Assembly (NCBI GenBank): GCA_903905455.1
Contig: CAIVGN010000029.1
Coordinates: 186,001 to 250,000 of the forward strand
Length of the DNA: 64,000 bases
From: an uncultured Archangium sp.
GTDB lineage: Bacteria > Myxococcota > Myxococcia > Myxococcales > Myxococcaceae
Direction: 5' to 3'
The first letter of the stretch is position 1. Each line of letters begins with the position of its first letter. Shown here one piece after another: positions 7,405-62,063 of the stretch. Under the pieces are notes generated by a model. It did no database searches, had not been told where the DNA came from, and saw only the letters and a list, made by a program, of their open reading frames with translations. Both the position numbers and the translations under genes were made by a program.

Positions 7405-9021
7405 ATGAAGCGACTGTTGTTGAGCGCGCTGCTGGGCGTGGGTCTGTTCGGTTGTGCGCCGAAAGAAGTGAACTACTCGGTCAAGATCGTCACCCAGAAC
7501 TGTGACCCGTCGGCGAACCCGTTCGAGGGCGTGCAGTTCCTCAGGGTGCGCGTCACGGGCACGGACATGGCGCCGCTGACCGCGACGTCGGCGGCCAACG
7601 CGGCGACGCCGGAGATCAAGATCCCCGAGATCCCCGCGGGGAACGGGCGCGTGATCGAAGTGCGCGCGTATGAGAACGACCCGGCCTCGGGTGGACGCGT
7701 GGTGTCCATCGGCAAGTCGGTGGCGTTCAACGTGCCGGACGTGGTGCCCGAAGACCTGATGGGCGCGCCGATCAACGTGAACGTGATCCTGCGCAAGGTG
7801 AACTCCTTCGCGCCCATCGTCTCGGCCGCGGCGCCGACCACGTGCCAGGCGTTGCGCGTTCCGCGCGCGGGCCACACGGCGACGCTGCTCAAGAGCGGCA
7901 AGGTGTTCATCGTCGGTGGCTACAACTTCAAGGCGGGGACCGCGGAGAAGAAGGCGCTGGCCGACGCGGAGATCTACAACCCGTCGACGGGCGCGTTCGA
8001 ACTGGCCAAGCCGATCTCCATTGGAGCGGTCGGTGAGTTCCCCCGCGCGTACCACACGGCGACGTTGCTCCAGAACGGCCAGGTCTTGATCTGGGGCGGC
8101 GAGTCGTACGGCAACGGGGTCAACAACACGCCGAACCTCTGGTCGCAGGTCTTCGGCTACGACGAAGGCGCGGACGAATACGGGATCTACCCCGGCCGCG
8201 TTCCCCCGGCGGCGCCCGTCATCGTCCGCTCGCACCACCGCGCGGCCATCGACAAGAACGGCAAGGTGCTGGTGGCCGGCGGCTACACGCGCAGCGGCTC
8301 GCTCATTCCCGCGGACGCGGTCGAGTGGCTCGACCCCGCGACGGCGACCAGCGACGCGGTCAAGGTGATCACCGGCGTGCAACTGCCGCGCATCGACCCC
8401 ACGGTCATGCCGCTCAAGCAGGGCGAGTTCATCGCCGTGGCGGGTGGCAGCGATAGCTCGTCAGTGAAGTCGGACATCACCTTCTTCAAGTTCGACGGCA
8501 CCACCTTCGGCAAGGTGACGCCCTCCACGCCTCCGCAGTTGTCGGGGGTGGGCCGCCGTGGGGCCGCCGGCGCCAACATCCGCGATGGCATGGACCTCAT
8601 CATTCTCGGGGGGTTCTCGAGCTCGACGATGGTCGCGCCACTCGGGTCGTCGGAGATCCTCTCGTCCTCGACGACGATCAGCCCGGGCCCCAACGACGTG
8701 GGCACGGCGCGCGGCGAGATCTGCGCCGTGACGCTGGCCGACGGCCGGGTGCTCGCCGTGGGTGGCCGTACGTCCGACTCCGGTGCGCCTGCGCGCTCGG
8801 ACGCCACGGCGGTGATGATCACCGCGGCCGAGACGGGCGGGGTGACCAGCGAGTCACGGCCGGCGCTGCCCAAGGCGCGCTACCACCACACCTGCACGGC
8901 GCTGAACGACGGCACGGTCTTGGTGACCGGCGGCATCAACGAGTTCTCGACCGGCGGCAACCAGACGTTCGAGATCCTCCAGGACGCGTACATCTACACG
9001 CCGACGCCGCTGACCGACTGA
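7405..9021 (+). CDS. Kelch-repeat (galactose-oxidase-like beta-propeller) lipoprotein
   Basis: 538 residues starting MKRLLLSALLGVGLFGC, with lipobox L-F-G-C (Cys17). After an N-terminal beta domain, recurring units of the form 'RAGHTATLLKSGKVFIVGGY', 'RAYHTATLLQNGQVLIWGG', 'RSHHRAAIDKNGKVLVAGGY' and 'RYHHTCTALNDGTVLVTGG' mark Kelch blades forming a beta-propeller. Such surface lipoproteins are abundant in myxobacteria and are usually binding modules rather than enzymes; no copper-oxidase Tyr/Cys pair is evident. It follows the PEGA gene by 5 bp. A two-hairpin repeat element immediately downstream probably ends transcription. Confidence 0.88.
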   Translation: MKRLLLSALLGVGLFGCAPKEVNYSVKIVTQNCDPSANPFEGVQFLRVRVTGTDMAPLTATSAANAATPEIKIPEIPAGNGRVIEVRAYENDPASGGRVVSIGKSVAFNVPDVVPEDLMGAPINVNVILRKVNSFAPIVSAAAPTTCQALRVPRAGHTATLLKSGKVFIVGGYNFKAGTAEKKALADAEIYNPSTGAFELAKPISIGAVGEFPRAYHTATLLQNGQVLIWGGESYGNGVNNTPNLWSQVFGYDEGADEYGIYPGRVPPAAPVIVRSHHRAAIDKNGKVLVAGGYTRSGSLIPADAVEWLDPATATSDAVKVITGVQLPRIDPTVMPLKQGEFIAVAGGSDSSSVKSDITFFKFDGTTFGKVTPSTPPQLSGVGRRGAAGANIRDGMDLIILGGFSSSTMVAPLGSSEILSSSTTISPGPNDVGTARGEICAVTLADGRVLAVGGRTSDSGAPARSDATAVMITAAETGGVTSESRPALPKARYHHTCTALNDGTVLVTGGINEFSTGGNQTFEILQDAYIYTPTPLTD

Positions 9022-9025
9022 CCTT

Positions 9026-9082
9026 CCCTCTCCCTGCGACCGCGGGGAGAGGGCCAGGGTGAGGGGCCGACCCCGTCACCCT
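9026..9082. repeat. REP-type palindromic repeat (copy A) at a convergent junction
   Basis: Two adjacent hairpins. Stem 1 is 9026-9037 with 9042-9053 (12 bp, one G-T wobble, 4-nt loop); its right half reads GCGGGGAGAGGG. Stem 2 pairs AGGGTGAGGGG (9056-9066) with CCCC-GT-CACCCT (9071-9082). It lies between two convergent genes and its last bases touch the stop codon of the minus-strand gene. The same core recurs at 18677 and 32250, so this is a dispersed family; a role as bidirectional terminator is inference. Confidence 0.8.
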
Positions 9083-18499: not shown

Positions 18500-20033
18500 T
18501 GACAGCTCAGTTCCCGAAGGTGACCGCGGCTGATTGGCGTGCCCAGGTCGAGAAGGATCTCGCCGGGGCGTCGTTCGAGAAGACGCTGGTGGCGAAGACC
18601 GCCGAAGGGCTCGCGGTCGAGCCCCTGTACACGCAGGCCCCCGCGCTCCAGATCCCCGGAATGCCCGCCCACTTCTCCCTCTCCCTGCGCCAGCGGGGAG
18701 AGGGCGGGGTGAGGGGCCCAGGTCGAGCACAGCCCCTCACCCGGCCTGCGGCCGACCTCTCCCCGCAGTCGCAGGGAGAGGTAACGATCCACTCGGATCC
18801 GCCGGAAGACCTCACGTCCCCCTTCATCCTCGACCGTGACCCGCTCGGACCCGACTTCCTCGCGACCGCGAAGCGCGTCGACGCCGACTACCCTCACGGC
18901 ACCGCGGGCCTCATCTCGACCCTGACCCACCACGACGCCGGCGCCGACGCCGCCGACGAACTGGCGATCGCGCTGGCCGCCGGAGTCGCCGCCCTCGAGT
19001 CCCTCCTGCAAGCCGGCTTCACCGCCCCGCGCGCAGCCCGCCAGCTCGCAGTCCAGCTCGCCGTCGGCCGGGACACCTTCAACGAGCTTGCGAAGCTCCG
19101 CGCCCTGCGCCTGTGCTGGAACAAGCTCCTCACGGCCGCTGGCGCCCCGAACACCAAGCTGCTCATTCACGCGGTCTGCTCGAGCCGCACGATGACCCAG
19201 CGCGACCCGTGGGTGAACATGCTGCGCGGCACGACCCAGGTGTTCGCGGCGATCCTCGGCGGCGCGGACGTCATCACCCCCACGGCCTTCGACCAGGAGC
19301 TCGGGACGCCCTCCGAGCTCGGCCTGCGCGTGGCGATGAACACCGGCCTGGTGCTGCGCCACGAGAGCCTGCTGGGTCACGTGATCGACCCGGCGGCCGG
19401 CTCGTACTACCTCGACACCTTCACCGACGCCCTCGCGCGCGAGGCGTGGAAGCGCTTCCAGGCGATCGAAGCCGCCGGCGGCATCATCCAGGCCCTGCCC
19501 ACCCTCGAGGCCCACATCGCGGCCACCTGGCAGCAGCGCCTCGAGTCGGTCTCCAAGCGCCGCACGCCGATCCTCGGGGTGTCCGAGTTCGCGAACCCCG
19601 ACGAGAAGCTCCCCCTGCCGGCCCGCGCCTTCACCGGCCCCGGGCACCGGGACGCGGAGGTCTTCGAGCAGCTGCGCCTGCGCGCCGACGCGAAGTCCCC
19701 CCACGCGATCCTCGTCACCCTGGGCACGCTGGCCGAGTCCCGCGCCCGCGTGGGCTTCGCCTCCAACTTCCTCTCGGCCGGCGGCATTCGCACCCGCGAG
19801 ACCACGGCCGACGAGAAGGCCGTGGTGGCCTGCCTGTGCGGCACCGACGAGCGCTACGCCACCGAGGCCATCGCGCGCGCGATGGCCCTCAAGGCCGCGG
19901 GCTGTACGCGGGTGCTGATGGCCGGTCGCCCCGGCCCCAACGAAGCGGCGCTGCGTGAAGCGGGCGTCGACGGCTTCATCTTCCTCGGCTGCGATCTCAT
20001 CGCCTCGCTCAACGAACTCCTGGACGTGTACCC

Positions 20034-31947: not shown

Positions 31948-32247
31948 ATGGCCGCCCGGAAGAAGAAGGCACCGAAGCCCGACGCGCGAACCGTCGCCCT
32001 CGCGTGGTTCGCGAACCTCTCCAACCGGATCTCCGACGCGCAGGTGCCTGAGCTCAAGGCTCTGATCGGCGAGGCGCGGGACTACGATCTGGTGGGGCTG
32101 ACCGACGCCCTGGGTGACGACGCCCAGGTGCTGGCCCTCAACGGCGCAGCCAACGCGTTGATCCAGGCGGGGCTCGACACGCACGGCGCGGCGAGCCCCC
32201 AGGGGTTTCAGCTCCAGGTGCTCAGGGACATCCTGAACGACACCTGA
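31948..32247 (+). CDS. small hypothetical protein, 99 aa
   Basis: ATG 31948 gives MAARKKKAPKPDARTVALAWFANL: a basic tail followed by a compact helical protein (SDAQVPELKALIGEARDYDLVGLTDAL-type amphipathic helices). It starts 13 bp after guaA, so it is probably on the same transcript. No domain recognised. A REP-type hairpin follows immediately after its stop. Confidence 0.65.
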   Translation: MAARKKKAPKPDARTVALAWFANLSNRISDAQVPELKALIGEARDYDLVGLTDALGDDAQVLALNGAANALIQAGLDTHGAASPQGFQLQVLRDILNDT

Positions 32248-32249
32248 CT

Positions 32250-32288
32250 CCCTCGCCCCGCAAGCGGGGAGAGGGCCGGGGTGAGGGG
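32250..32288. repeat. REP-type palindromic repeat (copy B) at a convergent junction
   Basis: CCCTCGCCCCGC pairs with GCGGGGAGAGGG (one mismatch, 2-nt loop), followed by CCGGGGTGAGGGG. This is the same bipartite core as at 9026 and 18677, and in the same orientation relative to the plus strand. It fills the gap between two convergent genes, one base from the stop codon of the S46 peptidase gene. A transcription end point is likely but inferred. Confidence 0.8.
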
Positions 32289-55963: not shown

Positions 55964-56515
55964 TTACGGCGTGTTGGAGATCGTCAGCTTCTTCACCACC
56001 ACCGGGCTCCGGGGGCGGTCGTCGGCGTCCTTGGGCAGCACGTTGGCGATGCGGTCGGCCACGTCCTGGCCCTGGATGACCTCGCCGAAGATGGTGTGCT
56101 TGTTGTTCAGGTTCGCCGTGGTGGTCACGGTGATGAAGAACTGGCAGCCGTTGGTGTTGGGGCCCGAGTTGGCCATGGCCAGGAGCCCCGCGCGGTCGAA
56201 GCGGCGCCCGGACTGGAACTCGTCTTCGAACTTGAAGCCCGGCTTGCCGCGACCGGTGCCGGCCGGGTCACCACCCTGGATCATGAAGTTCTTGATGCAG
56301 CGGTGCATCACCGTGCCGTCGTACAACGGCTTGTTCTTCATGGCCTCGCCGCTGACGGGGTGGGTCCACGGCTTTTCCCCGGTGGCCAGGCCGACGAAGT
56401 TCTCGACGGTCTTCGGGGCGTCCCTGGGGAACAGGTGCACGAGGATCACGCCCTCGCTGGTGTCGAACCGGGCGTACAGCTCGTGGCCGGCGCGTGCTTC
56501 TTCCATCATTCCCAT
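55964..56515 (-). CDS. cyclophilin-type peptidyl-prolyl isomerase, cytoplasmic
   Basis: 183 residues without a signal peptide; the start (ATG 56515, or an ATG 6-9 bp inside) is uncertain. Cyclophilin core: FPRDAPKTVENFVGLATGEK, FMIQGGDPAGTG (catalytic-site QGGD), FEDEF, LLAMANSGPNTNGCQFFITV, LNNKHTIFGEVIQG. It accelerates Xaa-Pro isomerisation during protein folding. First of three adjacent paralogues, each with a different localisation signal. It lies 30 bp after the lipoprotein paralogue. Confidence 0.93.
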   Translation of the reverse strand: MGMMEEARAGHELYARFDTSEGVILVHLFPRDAPKTVENFVGLATGEKPWTHPVSGEAMKNKPLYDGTVMHRCIKNFMIQGGDPAGTGRGKPGFKFEDEFQSGRRFDRAGLLAMANSGPNTNGCQFFITVTTTANLNNKHTIFGEVIQGQDVADRIANVLPKDADDRPRSPVVVKKLTISNTP

Positions 56516-56545
56516 GACTCGAATCTCGCTGCGAAGAGGGGGTGG

Positions 56546-57190
56546 TTACGGCGTTTCCGAAATGGTGATGCTCTCGATGACCACGGGCTCGAGCGGGCGA
56601 TCGCCCGGAGCCTTGGGCACCTTCGAGATGGCCTCGACCACCTCGTACCCCTTTACGACTTCGCCGAAGATCGTGTGCTTGTTGTTCAGGTAGGCCGGGG
56701 TGGAGGTGGTGATGAAGAACTGCGAGCCGTTGGTGGCGGGGCCCGCGTTCGCCATGGCCAGCAGCCCCACGCGGTCGAAGGTCTTTCCCGACTGAACCTC
56801 GTCTTCGAACTGGTAGCCGGGGTTGCCGGTGCCGGTGCCGAGCGGGTCACCACCCTGGATCATGAAGCCGTCGATGACGCGGTGGAACACGGTGCCGCTG
56901 TAGAGGGGCACGCCGCGCTTCATCTCGCCGGTGGCCGGGTGGCGCCACTCGCGCTCGCCCGTCGAGAGCCCGACGAAGTTCTTCACCGTCTTGGGGGCGT
57001 CCTTCGAATAGAGCTTCACGGTGACCGCGCCCAGGCGGGTCTTGATCGTGGCGTAGAGCTCGGTCCCGGCGGAGACCTTGTCGGTCCACGCGCCCTGCCC
57101 CGTGGCCGCCGCGGTGCTGCCGGCGCCGTCCTTCTTGCAGCCGACGAACGCCAGGGCGCCGAGGGCGAACAGCACGACGAGGGAGCGCAT
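56546..57190 (-). CDS. cyclophilin-type peptidyl-prolyl isomerase, lipoprotein
   Basis: 214 residues from ATG 57190 (TGATG overlap with the preceding paralogue; a GTG 3 bp upstream is alternative). MRSLVVLFALGALAFVGC has lipobox F-V-G-C; mature protein begins CKKDGAGST and so is envelope-anchored. Core motifs: YSKDAPKTVKNFVGLSTGE, FHRVIDGFMIQGGDP, FEDEVQSGKTFDRVGLLAMA, NGSQFFITTSTPAYLNNKHT. Close relative of the flanking paralogues. Confidence 0.93.
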   Translation of the reverse strand: MRSLVVLFALGALAFVGCKKDGAGSTAAATGQGAWTDKVSAGTELYATIKTRLGAVTVKLYSKDAPKTVKNFVGLSTGEREWRHPATGEMKRGVPLYSGTVFHRVIDGFMIQGGDPLGTGTGNPGYQFEDEVQSGKTFDRVGLLAMANAGPATNGSQFFITTSTPAYLNNKHTIFGEVVKGYEVVEAISKVPKAPGDRPLEPVVIESITISETP

Positions 57191-57798
57191 CACTTCTGAC
57201 CTCCGGCCGCCCTGGGGGCCTTGTCGCTGATGGTGACCTTCTTCATCACGGCCTTCTCGAGGCCGTTCATCTTCGAGATCAGCTCGACCACGTCGTAGCC
57301 GGTGACCACCTCGCCGAAGATGGTGTGCTTGTTGTTGAGGTGGCCGGGGGTGGAGGTGGTGATGAAGAACTGCGAGCCGTTGGTCGCGGCGCCGCGGTTG
57401 GCCATGGCCAGCAGGCCGACCTTGTCGAACTTGCGACCGGACTTGAACTCGTCGTCGAAGGTGTAGCCGGGGCCGCCACCGCCGGTGCCCTCGGGGTCAC
57501 CGCCCTGGATCATGAAGTTCTCGATCACCCGGTGGAAGAGCAGGCCGTCGTAGAAGGCGCGCCTGGTCTTCTTGCCGCTCCTGGGGTCGAGGAACTCCTT
57601 CTCACCCGACGCGAGGCCCACGAAGTTGGCGACGGTGTTGGGCGCGTCCTTCGAGAAGAGGCGCAGTACGATGTCTCCCTGCCCCGTGGAGATGGTGGCG
57701 AAGAGGTCCTTGCCGCCCTTCGCGAGAGTGGTGAACTTGCCCTCGCCGGCCGAGGCGAGCGTCGAGAAGAGGAGAACCGGCAGCAGCAGTCGCGTCAT
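57190..57798 (-). CDS. cyclophilin-type peptidyl-prolyl isomerase, exported
   Basis: 202 residues. MTRLLLPVLLFSTLASAGEG is a Sec signal peptide cleaved after Ala-Ser-Ala, so the enzyme is periplasmic. Core: FSKDAPNTVANFVGLASGEK, FHRVIENFMIQGGDP, FDDEFKSGRKFDKVGLLAMA, SQFFITTSTPGHLNNKHTIF, with a basic C-terminal extension (VMKKVTISDKAPRAAGGQK). It is the first transcribed of the three and starts 48 bp after rnc. Confidence 0.93.
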   Translation of the reverse strand: MTRLLLPVLLFSTLASAGEGKFTTLAKGGKDLFATISTGQGDIVLRLFSKDAPNTVANFVGLASGEKEFLDPRSGKKTRRAFYDGLLFHRVIENFMIQGGDPEGTGGGGPGYTFDDEFKSGRKFDKVGLLAMANRGAATNGSQFFITTSTPGHLNNKHTIFGEVVTGYDVVELISKMNGLEKAVMKKVTISDKAPRAAGGQK

Positions 57799-59492: not shown

Positions 59493-60635
59493 TCAGCCTT
59501 TCAGGACGTCTCGCGCAATGATCGAACGCTGAATCTCGCTGGTTCCTTCGCCGATCTCGCAGAGCTTGGCGTCGCGGAGGTAGCGCTCCACGGGAAATTC
59601 GCGGGTGTAGCCATACCCGCCGTGGATCTGCACGGCCTTGTTGCAGGCCCGGGTGGCGGCCTCGGAGGCGAAGAGCTTCCCCATGGACGCCTCGCGCGTG
59701 TACGGCTTGCCGGCGTCGGCGAGGGTGGCGCTGCGGAAGACGAGCAACTGGGCCGCGTCGATCTCCGTCTGCATGTCGGCCAGCATCCAGCGGATGGCCT
59801 GGAAGTCGCCGATGGCGCTGCCGAAGGCCTGGCGGTCCTTGGCGTACTTCACCGACTCTTCGATGGCGCCGCGGCCCAGGCCGCAGGCCAGCGCGCCGAT
59901 GGTGATCCGGCCGCCGTCGAGGATCTTCATGGTGTCCACGAAGCCCATGCCGACCTCGCCGAGGCGCTGAGAATCAGCGACCTCCACGTGGTCGAGGTGG
60001 AGCTCGGCGGTGTCCGACGAGCGCATGCCCAGCTTGCCGTGGATCGACTTCTGGCTGAAGCCCTTGAGGCTCTTGTCGAGGATGAAGGCGGTGATGCCCT
60101 TCTGGCGCTTGGCCGCGTCGGTGACCGCGAGCACCACGAAGACGTCGCCCACGGTGCCCTGGGTGATGAACATCTTCGAGCCGTTGAGCACCCAGGAATC
60201 GCCCTTCTTCACCGCGGTGGTCTTCATGCCCGCGGAGTCGGAGCCGCTGCCCGGCTCGGTGAGCGCCCAGGCGCCCAGCCACTCACCGGTCGCCAGCTTG
60301 GGGAGGTACTGCTGCTTCTGCCGCTCGTTGCCGAACATGCGGATGTGCGAGGTGCCCAGGCCATTGTGCGAGGCCACCGTGAGCGCGAGCGAGCCGTCGT
60401 AGCGGGCCACCTCTTCGACCACCACCGCGACCGCCAGCGCGCCCATGGCCGCGCCGCCGTATTCCTCACCGATGCGAATGCCCAGCAGCCCCAACTGGCC
60501 CATCTCGCGGACGATCTCGAGGGGGAACTTCTCGGAGTGGTCCCACTCGCGGGCCTTGTCCTTCACGCGCTTCTCGCAGAAGTCGCGCACGGTCTTCTTC
60601 AGGGCCTGGATGTCGTCGGGAAGCTCGAATTCCAT
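59493..60635 (-). CDS. acyl-CoA dehydrogenase (short/branched-chain type)
   Basis: 380 residues from ATG 60635 ([20 protein letters not shown]). Flavin-site blocks [20 protein letters not shown] and [20 protein letters not shown], family block [20 protein letters not shown] (QIHGGYGYT), and the catalytic-base region [19 protein letters not shown] with Glu in the position used by short- and medium-chain enzymes. It introduces the alpha-beta double bond in acyl-CoA, FAD-dependent, passing electrons to ETF. A methylglutaconyl-CoA hydratase gene lies upstream on the same strand beyond a repeat element, fitting branched-chain or fatty acid oxidation; exact chain specificity is not readable. Confidence 0.93.
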
Positions 60636-60731: not shown

Positions 60732-60865
60732 GCGGCTTCGATGGGAGGCGTGCGTCTCCCGCGATCGGCAGAGGTCGTCTCTGTGTTTGGGTGCCCGGGA
60801 TCGCCCCAATCCCTTCCTTTCCCCCCGGGGAAAGGGGAGCGCTCATCTGCCGCGCGGGCTAGACG
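60732..60865. repeat. left arm of a 549-bp inverted-repeat element
   Basis: 134 bp from GCGGCTTCGATGGG to GGCTAGACG, matching the reverse complement of 61148-61280 at roughly nine in ten positions by eye. It contains its own palindrome (CCTTTCCCCCCGGGGAAAGG, 60816-60835). It begins 97 bp upstream of the acyl-CoA dehydrogenase start. See the right arm and spacer. Confidence 0.85.
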
Positions 60866-61147
60866 AGCGCACAGAAATTCGGGGCCGGGCCTCCATTTTC
60901 AGGAACGGTCGGGGTTGCCTGATCCACCGTCGGACCTCGACGGTTTTCGTGAGAGGCGACGCGGGGCGCTGAAGCAGCAGCAACGTGAAGCAGCAGGTGC
61001 TGCCTTCGGCAGCCACGACAGGAAGTCAGATGTTGCTGCCTGGGCGGTGGATCAGGCGCATGCCAAGACCATCGAGAAGAAGCGTCGGCGATCTGCGCTG
61101 CGGTCGGTCCTGCACCTTGAGGCCTTGCCCCATTCGACTCTGAATCC
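60866..61147. other. spacer of the inverted-repeat element, with nested inverted repeats
   Basis: 282 bp with no convincing gene. Nested pairs: CCTGATCCACCG (60918-60929) with CGGTGGATCAGG (61045-61056); GCAGCAAC (60977-60984) with GTTGCTGC (61032-61039); and a central hairpin GCTGCC-TTC-GGCAGC (60999-61013). Short frames on both strands exist but start inside the arms and have repetitive Arg/Gly-rich composition. Confidence 0.6.
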
Positions 61148-61280
61148 CGTCTAGCCGCGCGGCAGATGAGCGCACCCCTTTCCCCGGGGGGAAAGGATGG
61201 GATTGGGGCGATCATGAGCACCCAAACACCGAGACGATCTCTGCCGATCGCAGGAGACGAACAGCCCCCATCGAAGCCGC
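61148..61280. repeat. right arm of a 549-bp inverted-repeat element
   Basis: 133 bp (CGTCTAGCCGCGCGG to TCGAAGCCGC), the inverted partner of 60732-60865. It also holds the internal CCTTTCCCCGGGGGGAAAGG palindrome. It ends 15 bp before the stop codon of the hydratase gene, so the element exactly fills the gap between the hydratase and the acyl-CoA dehydrogenase. No transposase or target duplication is recognised. Confidence 0.85.
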
Positions 61281-61295
61281 CCGTCCTGCCCACCC

Positions 61296-62063
61296 TCACC
61301 TCCCGCGGTACACCGGCGGCCGCTTCTCCGCGAAAGCCTTGAGCCCCTCGATCCGATCCTCCGTCCCGATCGTCTGCGCGTACTTCTGCTGCTCCACCGA
61401 CAACGCCGCGTCGAGATCCAGGTGCGCCCCCTCGTCAATCGCGTGCTTCGCCAGCGCCACGGCAATCGGCGCGTTCTGGCAGATCACCTTCGCCAGCCCC
61501 TGCGCGTCTTCCTGGGTCCCGATGCGCGACGCGAGCCCCAATCTGACCGCCTCATCCGCCGCGACCCGTCGCCCGGTCAGAATGAGCTCCTTGGCCACGC
61601 CCTTCCCCACCAACCTGGGCAACCGCTGCGTCCCACCCGCCCCGGGAATGATCCCCAACTTCACCTCGGTGAGCCCCATCTCGGCCTCCGCGGAGATCAC
61701 CCGCACGTCGCAGCACAACGACAACTCCGTCCCGCCCCCGAACGCCGCCCCGTTGACGAAGGCGATGAACACGCAGTCGGACAACTCGAGCGCCCGAAAG
61801 GTCTGGCGCATCAGCGACAGGAAGGCCCTCACCTCGTCAGGCGTCATGGTGGCGCGCTCCTTCAGGTCGGCCCCCGCGCAGAACGCCTTCGTCCCCGCAC
61901 CGCGCACCACCACCGCCCGCACCGACCGGTCCGCCCCGGACACCCGCGCCACGTTCGCCGCCAGCTCCGTCACCATGGCCCGCGACAACGCGTTGCGCTT
62001 CGCCTCGCCGTTGATGGTCCAGGTCTCGAACGGCCCGTGCGACTCGATCATGAATTCGGACAT
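61296..62063 (-). CDS. methylglutaconyl-CoA hydratase (AUH/LiuC-like enoyl-CoA hydratase)
   Basis: 255 residues from ATG 62063, GGGAG 9 bp upstream. Crotonase fold: oxyanion-hole strand [32 protein letters not shown] (first acidic residue), [20 protein letters not shown] (second Glu), [11 protein letters not shown]. The end, [20 protein letters not shown] then RPPVYRG, is strikingly like the AUH/LiuC 3-methylglutaconyl-CoA hydratases rather than generic EchA. That enzyme makes HMG-CoA in leucine breakdown, which the lyase at 25066 would then cleave. The sub-assignment is inference from remembered family patterns. Confidence 0.88.

Follow-up and report, generated by a model that had tools for sequence, protein, structure and literature searches.

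Most transposons leave a target-site duplication, HUH/Y1-type enzymes leave none and read hairpins, and group IIC introns insert behind genes, near terminators, likewise without a duplication. MITEs have been described with arms of 15 to 30 bp and a total size of 70 to 300 bp, and the REP repeats and the TIR repeats of TIRYT transposases have been reported to lie mostly behind genes (PMC3733652). The 549-bp stretch considered here (positions 60732 to 61280 of the window, i.e., of the whole 64-kb stretch of DNA that was analysed) probably represents one copy of a palindromic, non-autonomous mobile element. Its family is most likely previously undescribed and lineage-restricted; the general kind, a non-autonomous dispersed palindromic repeat, is known. 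In its behaviour the family is MITE- and BIME-like, and by strict membership tests it belongs to neither class. We regard it as a variant of the known kind because its arms are long and rich in hairpins, because no duplication accompanies it and because it is placed at stop codons.

The element lies between the genes of an enoyl-CoA hydratase and an acyl-CoA dehydrogenase, as stated in the original prediction, and the features of the locus are the following.

59493 to 60635, minus strand: acyl-CoA dehydrogenase (PF00441, PF02771, PF02770)
60732 to 61280, no strand: whole element (own-genome search; ends fixed by comparing the flanks of the copies)
60732 to 60865, plus strand: left arm, L type (inverted-repeat search, BLAST, arm comparison)
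60734 to 60771, plus strand: left terminal module GGCTTCGAYGGGAGGNNTNCGTCTCCYGCGATCGGCA (alignment of 59 ends; pattern scans)
60816 to 60835, no strand: hairpin CCTTTCCCC-CC-GGGGAAAGG in the left arm (palindrome scan, covariation)
60866 to 61146, no strand: spacer, about 281 bp, in which short inverted repeats are nested (repeat search, copy alignment)
61147 to 61280, minus strand: right arm, R type, inverted (inverted-repeat search, BLAST, arm comparison)
61177 to 61196, no strand: the same CCTTTCCCC/GGGGAAAGG hairpin in the right arm (palindrome scan, covariation)
61241 to 61278, minus strand: right terminal module, inverted (end alignment; pattern scans)
61296 to 62063, minus strand: enoyl-CoA hydratase (PF00378, E value of 1.9e-53)

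The hydratase stop codon is 15 bp from the element and the dehydrogenase start about 96 bp from it; the claim that the element fills the gap precisely is thus accurate on the hydratase side and not on the dehydrogenase side. By inverted-repeat search, the arms (60732 to 60857 and 61155 to 61280) are 126 nt long and 90% complementary, and when gaps are allowed in BLAST they extend to 134 bp at 90.3%, in agreement with the earlier estimate of about 134 bp and a match near 90%; in other copies, the arm homology reaches about 175 to 180 bp. Each arm features one 20-nt palindrome CCTTTCCCC-NN-GGGGAAAGG, of which chance alone would give 0.02 in the whole window, and a perfect 13-nt inverted repeat (60917 to 60929 and 61045 to 61057) is nested in the spacer. 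Both the palindrome inside each arm and the nested repeats had been foreseen, as had the lack of a gene in the element, where no open reading frame was found. In particular, no conserved reading frame was found in the spacer, where single-base indels differ between copies and, by breaking the frame, rule out a coding spacer; an inversion of the spacer suggested by the first alignment reflected the orientation of the locus only. Within the terminal module, CGTCTCC..GCGATCGGC is near invariant in the alignment (n = 59 ends), and the ends of the element consistently read G-rich-GGCTTCGA.

In the 8.6-Mb assembly of the same genome (251 contigs), the search returned 96 stretches that match the element, of which 14 are close to full length. 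Grouping of the end-pattern sites and the matches gave 40 places plus one solo end. Contig ends cut 18 of the 40 places, leaving nine halves from the left side and nine from the right, which match nine further copies beside the 22 assembled ones, and the real copy number is therefore about 31; 18 contig ends of the assembly are due to the family. The BLAST check proposed with the original prediction thus yields dispersed copies, and the combination named there as counting against the element, no other copies together with no conserved folding, does not hold. Among the 15 copies that are complete or almost so, pairwise identity is 83 to 93% (mean, 88%). Several copies (L018, L019 and L020) have internal deletions at the palindromes, and the short forms L031 (146 bp) and L032 (127 bp), which retain both ends, could be the product of post-insertion deletions at a palindrome. 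Upstream of an ordinary gene, we also noticed a solo 36-bp terminal module lacking a partner arm (L096, 2975 to 3010; G000:C238:34974), possibly what remains of a copy that was excised or deleted.

The element was not found in five congeners, the BLAST search of 59 relatives returned one borderline 55-bp match lacking the element structure, and a single one of 96 family genomes, G018 of another genus, gave a weak but real match. With a covariance model of the arm, matches among 145 genomes of the order were confined to the own genome and G018, the element being absent from the other 143; in the plasmid and phage collections, no match was found. A Gemmataceae match from the collection scan covers 25 bp only, apparently within coding sequence, and the matches in G097 and G034 are short and devoid of an inverted repeat structure of this kind. 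The G018 element is 313 bp long and occurs in at least three copies, which are 85 to 94% alike. Its last 120 bp align to the arm with about 72% identity and a local score of 74 (shuffle maximum, 29), in a colinear arrangement of terminal GCTTCGA, CGTC motif and hairpin, the hairpin sequence differing again (CCTTCTCCC/GGGAGAAGG). No overall inverted repeat was found in the G018 element, which carries one homologous arm. Thus, a family absent from the congeners is nonetheless related to one in another genus. The arm model also gave a weak fifth match in G018 (L132; G018:C377:3721-3859; E value of 0.007).

The same two genes are 87 bp apart in the congener G004 and 155 bp apart in G003, where the element is absent. 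Since both align continuously over the joined flanks (76% identity for G004 and 73% for G003), the site is taken to be empty in the congeners, in a comparison made between species. Directly behind the hydratase stop, the gap of G004 (L059, G004:C211) contains an unrelated hairpin, CCCCTCGACTCCGCTCGGGG. In G005, the same gap (L063, G005:C23, about 91682 to 92471) is occupied by two small genes, which look like a VapBC-type toxin-antitoxin pair with a PIN-like toxin; it follows that the gap between hydratase and dehydrogenase takes different insertions across species.

As for the placement of the copies, the flanking frames were called by a codon-based method, which gives crude gene calls. A confidently called gene ending at the element was present in 30 flanks, with 29 of the 30 stops within 47 bp (median, about 15). 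A stop within 47 bp was found at no fewer than 25 of the 40 places, versus 29% of intergenic bases (about 12 expected), the size of the excess being approximate, as the null derives from one 64-kb window with crude gene calls. Relative to the gene ending there, both orientations of the element occur. In G018, two copies are flanked by convergent genes, whose stops are 9 and 5 bp away from one copy and 10 and 7 bp away from the other. The data do not separate target choice from the removal of harmful insertions as the cause of this placement; if it is target choice, the family would be a naturally occurring system that inserts behind genes without doing harm.

The single-strand RNA fold of the element has an energy of -414.6 kcal/mol (z of -26.6; none of 20 shuffles equal), in line with the large stem expected earlier for a transcript. 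This very stable fold, together with a long-stem pairing of 97.8%, slightly above the 97.2% of shuffles, would favour a structured non-coding RNA or double-stranded RNA having the giant stem as its functional form, which we nevertheless judge to be very improbable. In fact, the arms of the same copy are 0.829 alike, compared to 0.825 for arms of different copies (P = 0.24), and this permutation test led us to reject the giant stem. Likeness is 0.87 among left arms, 0.87 among right arms and 0.825 between left and right; with the permutation result, it follows that the arms are old separate lineages and that the long stem has not been kept pair by pair. Moreover, several left arms show the change of TTTC/GAAA to TCGC/GCGA with the opposite arm unchanged, so that the local hairpin is kept and the long-stem pair is lost. 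No plausible Rfam family was found, the only match being mir-15 (E value of 0.033; 20.4 bits, far below the gathering score of 57.3). The suggestion of a structured RNA forming one very large stem is therefore not borne out, as the arms of a copy do not covary, and the proposed covariance analysis upheld only the short hairpins within the arms. These local hairpins covary: in 20 sequence-pair cells both sides have changed, with 99.5% paired, counts that exceed the number of independent events because the rows are related; none of 500 shuffles reaches this value, and no slid version comes near it. In other copies, the hairpin stem shows paired changes of TTTC/GAAA to TCGC/GCGA or TCTC/GAGA. Conservation differs between sites, and does so even for singleton changes (P = 2e-4), which could result from selection on the copies or gene conversion, rather than from simple decay after insertion. 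It is on such uneven conservation, on the double-sided covariation and on the location close behind stops, often between convergent genes, that one might build the reading of functional bidirectional 3'-end elements, which would end or insulate transcription or stabilise mRNA and whose copies and hairpins selection would keep. We consider this unlikely: the family is limited to one species and one relative genus, the congeners manage without it at this locus, the main hairpin is not followed by a T-run, intrinsic-terminator-like sites are weak (three versus 0.6 expected, all of them away from the main hairpin), and the hairpins may serve transposition instead.

The separate lineages of the left and right arms also bear on a BIME-like composition, a sub-reading that does not exclude the mobile element. 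Here, the repeated unit would be a REP-like arm of 120 to 180 bp, and the 549-bp form would consist of two such units in head-to-head arrangement, connected by a linker, which spread jointly thereafter. This origin is a tentative proposal, plausible without being the favoured expectation: the G018 element with its single homologous arm agrees with it, as does a location behind genes like that of REPs (PMC3733652), whereas the unit is far longer than REPs (20 to 40 bp), clear free single arms are missing from the own genome, apart from the solo end at C238:34974, and there is neither a GTAG tag nor a Y1 transposase. The earlier idea of paired REPs thus stands insofar as the arm behaves as a unit, which forms a head-to-head pair in this element and occurs alone in the other genus, and falls short in length, tag and Y1 transposase.

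The mobile-element reading, which had been among the options of the original prediction and is the best supported of them, is based on about 31 copies at 83 to 93% identity in one genome, on the absence from five congeners and 143 of 145 genomes of the order with a related element in G018, and on the placement close behind stops in both genera; mobility in trans is suggested by the dispersal with ends shared by short and long forms, and by the empty sites in the congeners. A transposase acting in trans would have recognised the terminal modules, perhaps also the small hairpins, and the same enzyme would have placed the copies behind genes. An HUH/Y1-type mechanism appears most likely: a single-strand enzyme of this type (RAYT/TIRYT-like), or another non-duplicating one, would fit better than a DDE transposase, given that no duplication is seen and that the ends are rich in hairpins. 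The enzyme may since have been lost, or its gene may fall into a gap of the assembly. On this view, the large inverted repeat would consist of two head-to-head arm units and would not be a functional giant RNA stem; effects on neighbouring mRNAs, by stabilising or ending the transcript, would be secondary, and the element might act as an RNA or a terminator as a by-product. Against the mobile reading, there is no target-site duplication, with no consistent direct repeat in 17 two-ended copies, and movement is deduced from distribution, since no transposase with matching ends and no Y1_Tnp were found. Scanning by end patterns gave no autonomous copy in the assembly, in which gaps remain, but only family copies and the one solo remnant. 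The copies are about 12% diverged and therefore give no support for recent activity. The uneven site conservation and the possible origin of the short forms by deletion likewise count against the mobile reading. A RAYT partner was discarded, as PF01797 is not found in the own genome and the Y1 gene of G003 lacks matching ends; the latter, which codes for a transposase of the Y1 type and lies close to the start of its contig (L109, G003:C48:229-552), has no element ends in the 2 kb covered.

Compared to MITEs such as Correia/NEMIS, Chunjie and MITEAba12, the family is similarly non-coding and intergenic, with terminal inverted repeats, tens of dispersed copies and size variants having both ends. 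Different from them, it shows no target-site duplication in the 17 copies and no parent IS sharing its ends in the gapped assembly, its location is tied to stop codons, and its arms measure 130 to 180 bp and its total 549 bp, beyond the described sizes (PMC3733652). With REP/BIME repeats and TIRYT TIRs it shares palindromic units paired head to head in alternating orientation, and an extragenic position, mostly behind genes in gaps whose flanking genes converge or run in the same direction (PMC3733652), as well as the absence of a duplication expected for HUH enzymes. However, the unit of 130 to 180 bp is several times longer than the short palindromes of 20 to 40 bp with a GTAG or CGTC tag; GTAG is lacking, CGTC is found about 20 bp inward from the end of the element and not beside the hairpin as a palindrome tag would be, and the assembly has no Y1 transposase. 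Insertion behind genes without duplication also recalls group IIC introns, but the element has an overall palindrome and neither an Rfam intron match nor an intron signature. The family adds a large, hairpin-rich, duplication-free member to the small set of bacterial dispersed palindromes. A bolder reading, to which we give a low probability, is that of a new class of mobile palindromes which would target a few bases behind stops without duplication, by means of a novel hairpin-reading enzyme, and exist in single- and double-arm forms across genera.

Two further repeats were noticed in the window. A second, shorter REP-like hairpin repeat, CTCCCTCTCCCTGCG..CGGGGAGAGGG, is present in three copies in the 64 kb (9019 to 9058, 18670 to 18709 and 32241 to 32280), and positions 56038 to 57559 contain three copies of a 293-bp direct repeat, 74 to 78% identical, which are apparently tandem paralogous genes.
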